This document shows positions 28,015 through 31,661 of a stretch of DNA of 34,714 nucleotides, piece after piece. The DNA is from Wohlfahrtiimonas larvae (GTDB lineage Bacteria > Pseudomonadota > Gammaproteobacteria > Cardiobacteriales > Wohlfahrtiimonadaceae). The stretch's first letter is position 1. Each line of letters begins with the position of its first letter. A model generated the notes under the pieces. That model saw nothing but the letters and a program-made list of their open reading frames with translations. It ran no database searches and was not told the DNA's origin. The position numbers were made by a program, and so were the translations under genes. The stretch lies in contig NZ_MVDO01000018.1 in the NCBI RefSeq assembly GCF_002006755.1, positions 1 through 34,714 of the forward strand. Direction: 5' to 3'.

Positions 28015-28051
28015 CAATTAATATTGCTCCCGTAGGGAGCAATATTAATTG
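28015..28051. repeat. Long perfect palindrome between yajQ and the oxidoreductase gene
   Basis: CAATTAATATTGCTCCC and its exact reverse complement (17 bases each) around GTA. There is no T-run on either strand, so it is not a standard terminator. It lies 13 bases after the minus-strand gene's stop and may act as a 3' stabilising hairpin or protein-binding site. Confidence 0.7.
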
Positions 28052-28063
28052 TAAAAGATATTT

Positions 28064-31000
28064 TTATTGATCAGCTTTGGTTAAGATTCTATTGAACCAA
28101 GCAACGTTGATCACATCCAATAATCTATTTTGGCTTGTACGTGCGGTTAGGTTATCCAAGTCAATTTCTTTAACATTCTGATCTTGGCCTGCACAAGTGA
28201 ATACAGCTTTTGTGCGCTGTTTTGTTACAGGATCAATCTGCCATTGTAAGCATTGACCGCAAACACCTTTCATCATACATTGCATAGGGCTACCAACAGT
28301 TCCCATCACTTCAACATCAGGTTTAAAGATATCAATTAAGCGGCCATTAGGTGATAATTCTTTTTGTAAGCCTTTTAATAAACCTGTAGAGCCTAATGCC
28401 AACATACGATCAATCCTAGATAAATCCACAACGCCATCATTGTTTAGATTTTCAAGTAATTCGATCATATCGGTTGCGACTACTGATGAATCCTGAGGGC
28501 GACGGGCCTCTAATTTATCGCCTTTTTGCACGCACCAAATGATCTGATCTGTACTCGCTTCCAATTCATCCATTTTATCCATTTCAGAAGCTTGAGCAAG
28601 CGTTGCGATATAAGTAATCTTATTACCAGCTTCACGCAATACAGGTGCTAAATCCAACATGATTGCTGTACCCCAACGACCTGCCATGATTAAGATATTC
28701 TTATTCGTTGGAATATCTGTTGGCGCACCTGTTGGGCCTGCCAATACTAAACAATCTCCTGGTTTCAAGCGAGAGATTAAACGTGGTGCAACACCCCATT
28801 GGAACACCATCAAACGGATTGCACCATCTTTAGAGCCTGTACCTGATGCTGTAAACAATGGAATCTGCATGCGTGTATCTTCAATGATCTGACCATCCAC
28901 TTCATATGTTTGTAAGCGGAAGAATTGACCAGGCTGGAAGTTTTTCGCAACAAATGGTGCTTTTACCCAAACTTCAGCAACCGCAGGGTTATCACGATTC
29001 ACAGATTGAACAGTCACTGTTAAACCTTCAGTCATTGTTGCGCTCAATTCATCATTGGATAAATGGTTCGCAGGTAATGCCTTCATGGATTCAATCACTT
29101 GATCCGCTGTACGTTTTGCACTTGTGATGGCTTTAACAACGTTACCGTTGAATGTTGGATGTGTATCGCCGATGTATGAAACACGATGATCTTTATGCTC
29201 AAAAGATGTGAAAGGTGCAAAGTCATCTTTCACATTCTTCTCACGATCATATTCAACTTTGTTGCCGAGTAGATCATAACCTTGGAAATGGTGTTTATCT
29301 TCAATTTCGATCGTGCCATGTTCAGTTGCATAGATCGTATTCGGTGAAGTACCAGCAGCTACTAATACTGTACGTGCTGGAATGGTCACTTCCTCGCCAT
29401 CTTTTGTAAAGGTAATGGTTTCAATATGGCCATATTTATCTAAGTTTACGCCTTTAGGGTTTAAAGATTCGCCATAGAAAATACCTTCTTCAAATGCTTT
29501 TGTGATCTCTTCATGGTTTAAAGTATAAGCAGGGGATTCTTGCATTGTACGGCGATATGCTAATAAAACGCCGCCCCATTTGTGCAATAAAGGTGTAAAG
29601 TTAGGAGCTTCGCCAGCGGCAGCTGCACGTTCACGCTCTGCTTTTACTTCACGACCATGAGTGATGAATTCATCTAGGATTTCATGATCTTCAGGTGTGA
29701 ATAGCGCACCACGAACAGCTTCTTCACCCAAGGTATCCACACGATGTAAAACTTTTTCTACTTGTTTAATATAGTAAGCTTGCATTTCTGTTGCAGCATC
29801 TACAGCTGTTAAACCACCACCAATGACAACAGCAGGCATACGCACTTGTAATGTAGATAGGGAAGTTTGCTTAGCAGCACCTGTCAATTGCATTGCCATT
29901 AAGAAGTCAGAAGCTTGGCGCATACCACGAGCCAATGAGTTCTCAATGTTCAATACGCGTGGTAAACCTGCGCCAACTGCCATTGAAACGTGATCAAAGC
30001 CTAATTCAAAGGCATCTTCTAACATCAATGTACCGCCTAAGCGCACACCACCAAAGATCTGTACATTGTTACGACGAGCTAATACCAAATAGATCAAACG
30101 AAGGAAGTTTTTATCCCAACGAACTGTAATACCGTATTCAGCAACGCCACCAAAACCATATAAAATACGGTTTGCTAAATCTTCTTCTAAAGATGACCAA
30201 TGTTCAACAGGGCCATTGATAATGGCTTCAGGCAATGGTTCAATCTTTAAACCATCTACAGCCACAACATGACAACCTGCTTGAGATAAATAATGTGTCA
30301 TCGTGAAACCAGCAGGGCCTAAACCTGATACTAATACTTTGCGATTATTGCCATCTGTTGGTAAGTAAGCTGATTGCTTTAATGGGTTCCAACGAGTAAA
30401 AATATCATAAATCTCAATACCCCAAGGCAATTCTAAAACACTTGTTAATACGTTTGTTTCGATTTGAGGAATATTAACAGGCTCAGTTTTCTGATAGATA
30501 CATGCCTTCATACAGTCATTACAAATACGATGACCTGTTGCAGGAACCATTGGATTTTCGATCATGATCATTGCTAATGCACCGATTACATGACCTGATT
30601 TGCGCAATGTGATCATCTCGGAGATTTTTTCATCCAAAGGACAACCTGTTTGTGTATTGCCAAATGTATCTTTCTTTAAACCCAATTCAGGTTGAGCTTT
30701 TTTAACAGGGAAGCCTTTACTACAGAAATCACCTTCATGATCGTGGCAATATTTACAGTAATCCACTTCGCCTGCGATGTCATGATCACACATGCGGTTA
30801 TCTGTTAAATGAAATCCGTCACGGCGGCGCTCTTTACCATTGCCTTGGCGAACAGGAATACCTTTAAAGATTACTTCTTCATTATTGACTAAGTTTTGAG
30901 GATCAACACGCTCTGGGAATTTAAAAGAAACCCAACCTTTTGTGACTGCTTGACCTTCTTCCGTATTTAAAGCTAAAGCGCCCCATTCGATGATCTCTTT

Positions 31001-31465
31001 TTCTTCATCAGAGCCTGCTTCTAATGTTACGGCATATTTGGCTAAATCAAATTCAAATGTTTCTGCCGTTGCATTGCTTTTTGCCATTAAACGATCGGTT
31101 AATGTATCGAAAGTTTCAGTAATCTCTTGTTTATAACGTTTTGCACCACGTTGAATATAGCGATCTTTAAACTGCAATACAGTCGCTTCATCCTTAGCTT
31201 GTGTGAAATAAAATTCAGTATCTTTTTGAATTTGTAATGTATTTGAGATAAATTGATTCAGCGCCTCAGCAATTTGTATTTGTAATTCTGAAGTTTCAAT
31301 TTTATTTAAGGTTAATGTTTGGTTACGCCAAGACTCAATTTGAGTTTTTAATTCGGGTGATAAACTATTTAAAAATAGTTGGTCAAGCGACTCTAATCCT
31401 TCTTTGGTTTTAAGGGCATCAAATGAAAGCGCAAAAGGCTTCCAGAGTTCGTCAAAGTTGGTCAT
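28064..31465 (-). CDS. GltD-PyrK fusion FAD/NAD(P) iron-sulfur oxidoreductase (NfnAB-like single chain)
   Basis: 1133 residues from the ATG at 31465 (AGGA 8 bases upstream; an ATG at 31474 abuts the AGG). Residues 1 to about 215 are helical and unrecognised. Cysteines follow at 226, 237, 240, 248 and 275, then 315, 318 and 322 ('RICNDCMKACIYQ'), as in GltD-type [4Fe-4S] domains. The FAD motif GLGPAG is at 381-386 and the NAD(P) motif GGGLTA at 549-554. From about 830 a ferredoxin-reductase-like part begins: 'FQPGQFFRL' for flavin, 'LAGPTGAPTDI' and 'ILIMAGRWGTA' for nucleotide, then C1063-x5-C1069-x2-C1072...C1091 for a [2Fe-2S] cluster as in PyrK/HydG. These are the modules of the NfnB and NfnA subunits of electron-bifurcating NADH-dependent ferredoxin:NADP+ oxidoreductase. 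Here they are fused. Bifurcation is an inference only. Confidence 0.8.
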   Translation of the reverse strand: MTNFDELWKPFALSFDALKTKEGLESLDQLFLNSLSPELKTQIESWRNQTLTLNKIETSELQIQIAEALNQFISNTLQIQKDTEFYFTQAKDEATVLQFKDRYIQRGAKRYKQEITETFDTLTDRLMAKSNATAETFEFDLAKYAVTLEAGSDEEKEIIEWGALALNTEEGQAVTKGWVSFKFPERVDPQNLVNNEEVIFKGIPVRQGNGKERRRDGFHLTDNRMCDHDIAGEVDYCKYCHDHEGDFCSKGFPVKKAQPELGLKKDTFGNTQTGCPLDEKISEMITLRKSGHVIGALAMIMIENPMVPATGHRICNDCMKACIYQKTEPVNIPQIETNVLTSVLELPWGIEIYDIFTRWNPLKQSAYLPTDGNNRKVLVSGLGPAGFTMTHYLSQAGCHVVAVDGLKIEPLPEAIINGPVEHWSSLEEDLANRILYGFGGVAEYGITVRWDKNFLRLIYLVLARRNNVQIFGGVRLGGTLMLEDAFELGFDHVSMAVGAGLPRVLNIENSLARGMRQASDFLMAMQLTGAAKQTSLSTLQVRMPAVVIGGGLTAVDAATEMQAYYIKQVEKVLHRVDTLGEEAVRGALFTPEDHEILDEFITHGREVKAERERAAAAGEAPNFTPLLHKWGGVLLAYRRTMQESPAYTLNHEEITKAFEEGIFYGESLNPKGVNLDKYGHIETITFTKDGEEVTIPARTVLVAAGTSPNTIYATEHGTIEIEDKHHFQGYDLLGNKVEYDREKNVKDDFAPFTSFEHKDHRVSYIGDTHPTFNGNVVKAITSAKRTADQVIESMKALPANHLSNDELSATMTEGLTVTVQSVNRDNPAVAEVWVKAPFVAKNFQPGQFFRLQTYEVDGQIIEDTRMQIPLFTASGTGSKDGAIRLMVFQWGVAPRLISRLKPGDCLVLAGPTGAPTDIPTNKNILIMAGRWGTAIMLDLAPVLREAGNKITYIATLAQASEMDKMDELEASTDQIIWCVQKGDKLEARRPQDSSVVATDMIELLENLNNDGVVDLSRIDRMLALGSTGLLKGLQKELSPNGRLIDIFKPDVEVMGTVGSPMQCMMKGVCGQCLQWQIDPVTKQRTKAVFTCAGQDQNVKEIDLDNLTARTSQNRLLDVINVAWFNRILTKADQ

Positions 31466-31661
31466 TTCAGTCATCCTACACTAAAGTGGTCATTCATTTT
31501 GAAATATTAAATAGGGCGCTATTGTAACGAATATTTCAATTTTTTGTTGCGATGTAAATCATCATTTTATTATGTAGTATTGCTTATTTGCAAAATAGGT
31601 ATAGATTATTGTCTCTAATGAGCTACATTTATAGTACATTCACTAAATCATGGAGGATATG

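Follow-up and report, generated by a model that had tools for sequence, protein, structure and literature searches.

A single-chain Nfn-like flavoenzyme of Wohlfahrtiimonas larvae and its relatives: architecture, conservation and candidate role in ferredoxin reduction

On the minus strand of a 34,714-nucleotide stretch of Wohlfahrtiimonas larvae DNA (contig NZ_MVDO01000018.1, assembly GCF_002006755.1; hereafter the window) lies a gene for a fusion protein in which a GltD/NfnB-like half is followed by a PyrK/NfnA-like half and preceded by a helical N-terminal domain. Judged from sequence, predicted fold and genome comparison, this fusion most likely functions as an Nfn-like NADPH:ferredoxin oxidoreductase in the role of Fpr, and our leading but tentative proposal is that it fills this role by electron bifurcation. 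The architecture, the fold and the conserved cofactor residues of the fusion are directly supported; the direction of electron flow, the bifurcation and the identity of the ferredoxin we infer. In a preliminary description of the window, the protein had been observed as a GltD-PyrK fusion and interpreted as a potentially novel bifurcating or redox-balancing relative of NfnAB; the observation is confirmed and the interpretation partly supported.

Fold, cofactor residues and relation to known enzymes

The GltD-like half had been credited with two four-iron-type cysteine sets and with FAD and NAD(P) sites, and this is borne out by its matches to Fer4_20 and Pyr_redox_2 in the Pfam search, by its Nfn-type fold and by the invariance of the cysteines concerned (C240-x2-C243-x7-C251-x26-C278 and C318-x2-C321-x3-C325, the latter with E339; residues are numbered from the ATG at 31474). 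The second half, described as PyrK-like with flavin and [2Fe-2S] sites, could be matched to the small subunit of Nfn both by sequence and by fold. When the protein or a 60-member profile was searched against the PDB, NfnI and Xfn of Pyrococcus furiosus and NfnAB of Thermotoga maritima were matched, the large subunit first and then the small one.

A comparison of the predicted structure with NfnAB-type enzymes, as proposed in the preliminary description, gave the same picture. The full-length AlphaFold model (mean predicted local distance difference test score, pLDDT, 90.7; predicted template modelling score, pTM, 0.91) superposes best on NfnI, with a VIA-align Z of 31.8 for the NfnA-like half on the small subunit 5jca_S (2.0 Å, 275/279 residues) and of 27.7 for the NfnB-like half on the large subunit 5jfc_L (2.4 Å, 435/463 residues). 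The other solved folds scored lower, namely GltD (Z 25.0), PyrK (Z 24.6) and dihydropyrimidine dehydrogenase (Z 23.7). Foldseek agrees in placing NfnI at the top of the solved structures, and both subunits of Xfn (5vj7) are among the best fold matches.

Conservation was assessed over 74 sequences, that of the window plus 73 homologues which a scan of genome contigs had yielded. Since the scan selected loci by either of the two short motifs RICNDCM and GFGGVAEY, conservation inside these motifs is partly given by construction; the cysteines of the [2Fe-2S] site, C240, C243, C251, C278, C325, E339 and R452 lie outside them. No variation was seen in any of the 11 cysteines, in E339 or in R452 (74/74), nor in the predicted NADPH site Y640-R641, which is followed by R or K at position 642. 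In the profile alignment, E339 aligns with E126 of P. furiosus NfnL, the glutamate that ligates the proximal [4Fe-4S] cluster there (PMC9503767), and R452 with the N5-Arg of the bifurcating FAD, which in the form of Arg187 of T. maritima NfnB or Arg201 of P. furiosus NfnL is hydrogen-bonded to the flavin N5 (PMC6405883). Fold, cofactor residues, N5-Arg and glutamate cluster ligand are hence all in line with the proposed correspondence to NfnB followed by NfnA. The NfnB-like half is best conserved: its mean identity to the window is 56%, while the NfnA-like half reaches 41% and the N-terminal domain 25%.

For this N-terminal domain (residues 1-205), the Pfam search gave no family above cut-off with the window and no consistent match among 58 relatives, a sequence search of the PDB returned no credible solved chain, and the best Foldseek match had an E of 4.4. 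The best VIA-align score (Z 5.9 over 64 residues) is no higher than helical bundles would be expected to give. Conservation over the 74 sequences revealed no conserved Cys/His set, and a metal site is therefore not suggested. The earlier statement that this part matches nothing thus holds for Pfam, PDB and Foldseek over about 205 residues, but not for NCBIfam, as the PRK06567 profile covers the domain from profile position 5 onwards, which makes it unknown rather than unrecorded. A role in partner docking is possible.

With NfnI of P. furiosus (NfnSL, 5jca/5jfc) and NfnAB of T. maritima (4ylf), the fusion shares the fold of both halves, the FAD and NADPH domains, the two [4Fe-4S] sites with their Glu ligand, the N5-Arg, the position of the [2Fe-2S] site and the C-terminal helix. 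Unlike these enzymes, it is one chain in B-then-A order with an extra helical N-terminal domain and insertions, has an all-Cys [2Fe-2S] site and longer spacings in the first [4Fe-4S] cysteine set, and counts aerobic lineages among its hosts. The Nfn motifs have been given as DGTGMCGxCRx10CV for the [2Fe-2S] site, with an Asp ligand that is linked to its high potential, RCx2Cx4Cx3CPV for the first [4Fe-4S] cluster, and ERxPxT for the a-FAD, with the Thr at N5 (PMC6405883). In the fusion, the first motif reads C-x5-C-x2-C-x(17-18)-C without any Asp in all 74 sequences, its first Cys replacing the Asp one residue further away, and the second has the same number of cysteines but different spacings (C-x2-C-x7-C-x(22-35)-CP). 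The a-FAD motif of the window (QIPLFT) keeps the Pro and a Thr; across the 74 sequences, Ala stands at the Thr position in 50 and Glu at the Pro position in 51, the members with Pro forming one side of a single branch in the tree. As the two cluster motifs differ from those of Nfn and the a-FAD motif is retained only partly, we call the protein Nfn-like and do not file it as Nfn proper.

PyrK is a stand-alone subunit with a [2Fe-2S] spacing of C-x4-C-x2-C, and the fusion departs from it both in its C-x5-C-x2-C spacing and in being joined to a GltD-like half. The preliminary description had singled out this spacing by comparison with PyrK; it is indeed unusual and present in 74/74 sequences, but the better comparator is Nfn with its Asp. 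Single halves of the fusion share their fold with PyrK of DHODB, GltD of GOGAT and dihydropyrimidine dehydrogenase, none of which has both halves, and the partners PyrD and GltB are not joined to the fusion chain.

By far the top family match is NCBIfam PRK06567 (NF005128), which has the same architecture from the N-terminal domain through the NfnA-like half. The window scores 635 bits, with the best stretch covering profile positions 5-925 of 1031 and hence near full length, and seven other members score 583-786 bits, all below the equivalog cut-off of 1072 bits. The fused enzymes of PRK12779 and PRK12778 also combine GltD-like and PyrK-like halves, yet score only 88 and 128 bits on the window, respectively, and in PRK12778 the halves stand in A-then-B order. 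Uncharacterised B-then-A fused Nfn homologues with C-terminal NfnA domains were moreover described in Actinobacteria and Proteobacteria (Liang et al., 2019; PMC6405883). Of these, 'Pattern C' (Mobiluncus curtisii and some Proteobacteria) is likewise a single chain with C-terminal a-FAD, NAD and [2Fe-2S] domains but, compared by description only, it exceeds the clostridial fusion by about 200 aa, which would make it shorter than the present family (PMC6405883). With these precedents, the novelty suggested for the fusion is not supported, and the fusion as such is no discovery.

The name of PRK06567, 'bifunctional glutamate synthase subunit beta/2-polyprenylphenol hydroxylase', is misleading, as nothing supports the functions that it implies. 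Taken literally, it would make the protein a glutamate synthase small subunit fused to a polyprenylphenol hydroxylase, as in a Neorickettsia genome paper that took the long name at face value and assigned glutamine conversion to it (PMC5481527); no paper mentioning the PRK06567 accession was found in the literature searched. Beyond the NCBIfam names, this reading can draw on the fold similarity to GltD mentioned above. However, the C-terminal half is NfnA-like and not a hydroxylase, and GltB (PF04898) had no match in the host genome, in five family members or in 5 other carriers, the control being positive in 13/14 genomes. The absence of GltB excludes the glutamate synthase reading in practice, and we give it hardly any credence.

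Candidate function and its alternatives

More than 560 stretches were confirmed as members of the fusion family in one scan of genome contigs, and the fusion is present in 42 of 219 sampled Gammaproteobacteria. Homologues range over several classes of Pseudomonadota and over Myxococcota, Acidobacteriota, Planctomycetota, Nitrospirota and Chlorobiota, although many of the records are metagenome-assembled and single taxonomic placements are to be taken with care. In the tree, the window joins Ignatzschineria first and then Acidithiobacillus together with other Gammaproteobacteria. Members of the family occur in Myxococcus, Methylococcus, Acidithiobacillus and Ignatzschineria, all generally known as aerobes.

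From our point of view, the protein could be a soluble flavoenzyme of the Nfn type in one chain, with NADPH being oxidised at the FAD of the GltD/NfnB-like half. Of the two electrons, one would then pass via the proximal [4Fe-4S] cluster with its Glu ligand and via the distal [4Fe-4S] cluster to a low-potential ferredoxin, for which the YfhL-like (83 aa) and FdxA-like (107 aa) proteins of the host are candidates, and the other via the all-Cys [2Fe-2S] cluster and the second FAD to NAD+ or another higher-potential acceptor. In the host and in many aerobic relatives, this would provide reduced ferredoxin for biosynthetic enzymes, which is the job of Fpr elsewhere.

A match of E. coli Fpr with an E of at most 1e-20 was counted as Fpr, and the counts for Fpr, POR and PntB were taken by hand from the search tables. 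Among the 219 Gammaproteobacteria, Fpr is found in 2/42 carriers of the fusion compared to 62/177 non-carriers (Fisher p 4e-5, uncorrected for phylogeny). In a phylum-wide sample of 299 genomes, in which eight of the 15 carriers come from one family and which has a few genomes in common with the first sample, it occurs in 1/15 carriers and 157/284 non-carriers (p 2e-4, also uncorrected). In the host genome (99.8% complete), a FAD_binding_6 search revealed no stand-alone plant-type ferredoxin-NADP+ reductase (FNR); the only two open reading frames (ORFs) matched read, by eye from their sequence, as a flavohaemoglobin and a membrane protein resembling ferric reductases. The two candidate ferredoxins, also named by eye, are small and of the 2[4Fe-4S] type. 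Their genes (YfhL-like, L137:1359-1610; FdxA-like, L137:3836-4159) are about 2.2 kb apart, and between them lie a 330-aa L,D-transpeptidase-like and a tyrosyl-tRNA-synthetase-like ORF (both by eye).

Several points weigh against a bifurcating enzyme in place of Fpr. The negative association of Fpr with the fusion is a correlation without phylogenetic correction, seen in samples that share a few genomes, and Fpr is absent from many non-carriers too (e.g. G019), so that other ferredoxin reductases must exist; a thioredoxin reductase (TrxR)-type FNR is possible in the host genome as well. The gene neighbourhood, compared over 80 loci, offers no conserved neighbour that would indicate a pathway. 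Lastly, the Asp to which the high potential of the [2Fe-2S] cluster in Nfn is attributed is replaced by a Cys in the fusion and the a-FAD motif has diverged in most of the family, and the high-potential branch may therefore differ or not bifurcate.

The same two departures could also be explained by a non-bifurcating oxidoreductase that retains the Nfn scaffold but transfers electrons from NADPH to ferredoxin, or to NAD+ or another acceptor, with both electrons following one energetic path, as they do in PyrK or GltD, and as a general argument oxygen-using hosts would have less need of bifurcation (PMC6085437). Yet the Glu ligand and the N5-Arg, which in Nfn are linked to coupling, are kept in 74/74 sequences, and as the E126C exchange in NfnL uncouples the two branches (PMC9503767), the retention of the Glu suggests selection for coupling. 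Together, these conserved residues speak for coupling, i.e. bifurcation, yet the all-Cys [2Fe-2S] site and the diverged second-flavin motif leave room for a non-bifurcating enzyme, which we consider less likely than not. Doubtful to a similar degree is the wider proposal that the family represents a bifurcating NADPH:ferredoxin oxidoreductase widespread in aerobes, a single chain with an all-Cys [2Fe-2S] entry to its high-potential branch and a helical domain of its own, which would replace Fpr as the source of reduced ferredoxin.

As the overall fold and the cofactor set match NfnI, one could also imagine a canonical Nfn that works towards NADPH, with NADH and reduced ferredoxin reducing 2 NADP+. 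However, in the host genome no POR/KOR (POR_N) was found above cut-off and, as in five family members, no RnfC, either of which could make the reduced ferredoxin, and PntB is present for NADPH, which makes a POR-fed canonical role unlikely. Carriers are also not enriched in POR, which shows no significant association with the fusion among the Gammaproteobacteria (13/42 carriers, 75/177 non-carriers). Taken together, we regard the canonical direction as improbable. PntB is not significantly associated with the fusion either (29/42 versus 95/177); replacement of PntAB by the fusion and a dependence of the fusion on POR/KOR were both rejected, as neither showed an association in the 219 genomes.

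In P. furiosus, Xfn consists of two subunits, and the substrate of the small one is unknown. An Nfn-like enzyme with a second substrate other than the known ones, perhaps held by the N-terminal domain, would be in keeping with the ranking of Xfn among the best fold matches, with the loose pyridine-nucleotide loop (AGRWG in the window, GGGVG in NfnA) and with the diverged a-FAD motif. There is, however, neither a gene neighbour that suggests a substrate nor a conserved Cys/His set in the N-terminal domain, and such an enzyme seems to us no likelier than the canonical one.

The gene and its surroundings

The coordinates of the gene, its domains and flanking elements are given in Table 1. Of the in-frame ATGs, the one at 31465 comes second (residue 4 of the ORF counted from 31474) and is probably the true start, as in the preliminary description, because a Shine-Dalgarno AGGA precedes it at 7 nt and because two congeners (L005/L006) lack the upstream in-frame ATG and have its equivalent as their sole in-frame start. 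With a terminator-like hairpin after its stop codon and a divergent gene upstream, the fusion gene looks monocistronic.

Table 1. Coordinates of the fusion gene, its encoded domains and flanking elements in the window
Feature	Position	Strand	Remarks
Whole ORF	28064..31474	minus	1136 aa + stop from ATG at 31474; 1133 aa from 31465
Shine-Dalgarno AGGA	31474..31477	minus	7 nt upstream of ATG 31465; spacing identical in congeners L005/L006
All-helical N-terminal domain, residues 1-205	30860..31474	minus	AlphaFold pLDDT mostly >90; no Pfam/fold match; no conserved Cys/His set
NfnB-type helical domain for two [4Fe-4S] clusters, residues 206-372	30359..30859	minus	Fer4_20 match; C240, C243, C251, C278, C318, C321, C325, E339
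Codon of E339	30458..30460	minus	Aligned with PfNfnL E126
NfnB/GltD-type FAD and NADPH Rossmann domains, residues 373-803	29066..30358	minus	Pyr_redox_2; superposition on 5jfc_L; R452, Y640-R641
Codon of R452 (N5-Arg position)	30119..30121	minus	Aligned with Arg201 PfNfnL / Arg187 TmNfnB
NfnA/PyrK-type FAD and pyridine-nucleotide domain, [2Fe-2S] domain, C-terminal helix, residues 811-1136	28067..29044	minus	Superposition on 5jca_S
[2Fe-2S] site C1066-x5-C1072-x2-C1075-x18-C1094	28193..28279	minus	Invariant; last gap x17 or x18 only
Terminator-like hairpin, 17 bp	28015..28051	minus	Directly 3' of stop codon
Intergenic region between fusion gene and divergent fumC-like gene	31475..31649	none	Contains TTACATC.CAACA block

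The block TTACATC.CAACA, which lies within window 31475-31600 next to the divergent fumC-like gene, is kept in six congeners, and the adjacency to fumC is limited to the genus of the window. An upstream box for the regulators FNR/ANR was rejected, since the window holds no excess of TTGAT-N4-ATCAA over shuffles (61 versus 57) and the upstream site is not one of the matches. When the ORFs around the 80 loci were clustered, no neighbour was common to more than 7 loci and none stood at a constant place. In one gammaproteobacterial clade (L050, L053, L054, L055, L098), two adjacent ORFs of about 190 and 348 aa lie downstream of the fusion.

Two copies of the fusion are present in one gammaproteobacterial genome (G057; C1:325097-328513 and C9:102789-106247), one of them with an in-frame TAA, in contrast to a review in which fused nfn were never found duplicated (Liang et al., 2019; PMC6405883). 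A single in-frame stop was also seen in the copies G167:C1:861428-865081 (TAG) and G081:C41:24078-27479 (TAA), which are possibly decaying genes or assembly errors.

Implications

In published surveys, Nfn was found in essentially one aerobe and is viewed as almost absent from aerobes (PMC6085437, PMC6405883). The fusion family carries the residues found at the bifurcation site of Nfn, has members in genera generally known as aerobes and, as a bifurcating enzyme, would run counter to this picture. If the fusion bifurcates, flavin-based bifurcation in aerobic cells would not be largely restricted to Fix; otherwise, the family would offer a natural test of which residues are needed for bifurcation, as the Asp of the [2Fe-2S] site is naturally a Cys. 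Either way, a correction is due for the misleading automatic name, which has already entered a metabolic reconstruction (PMC5481527).

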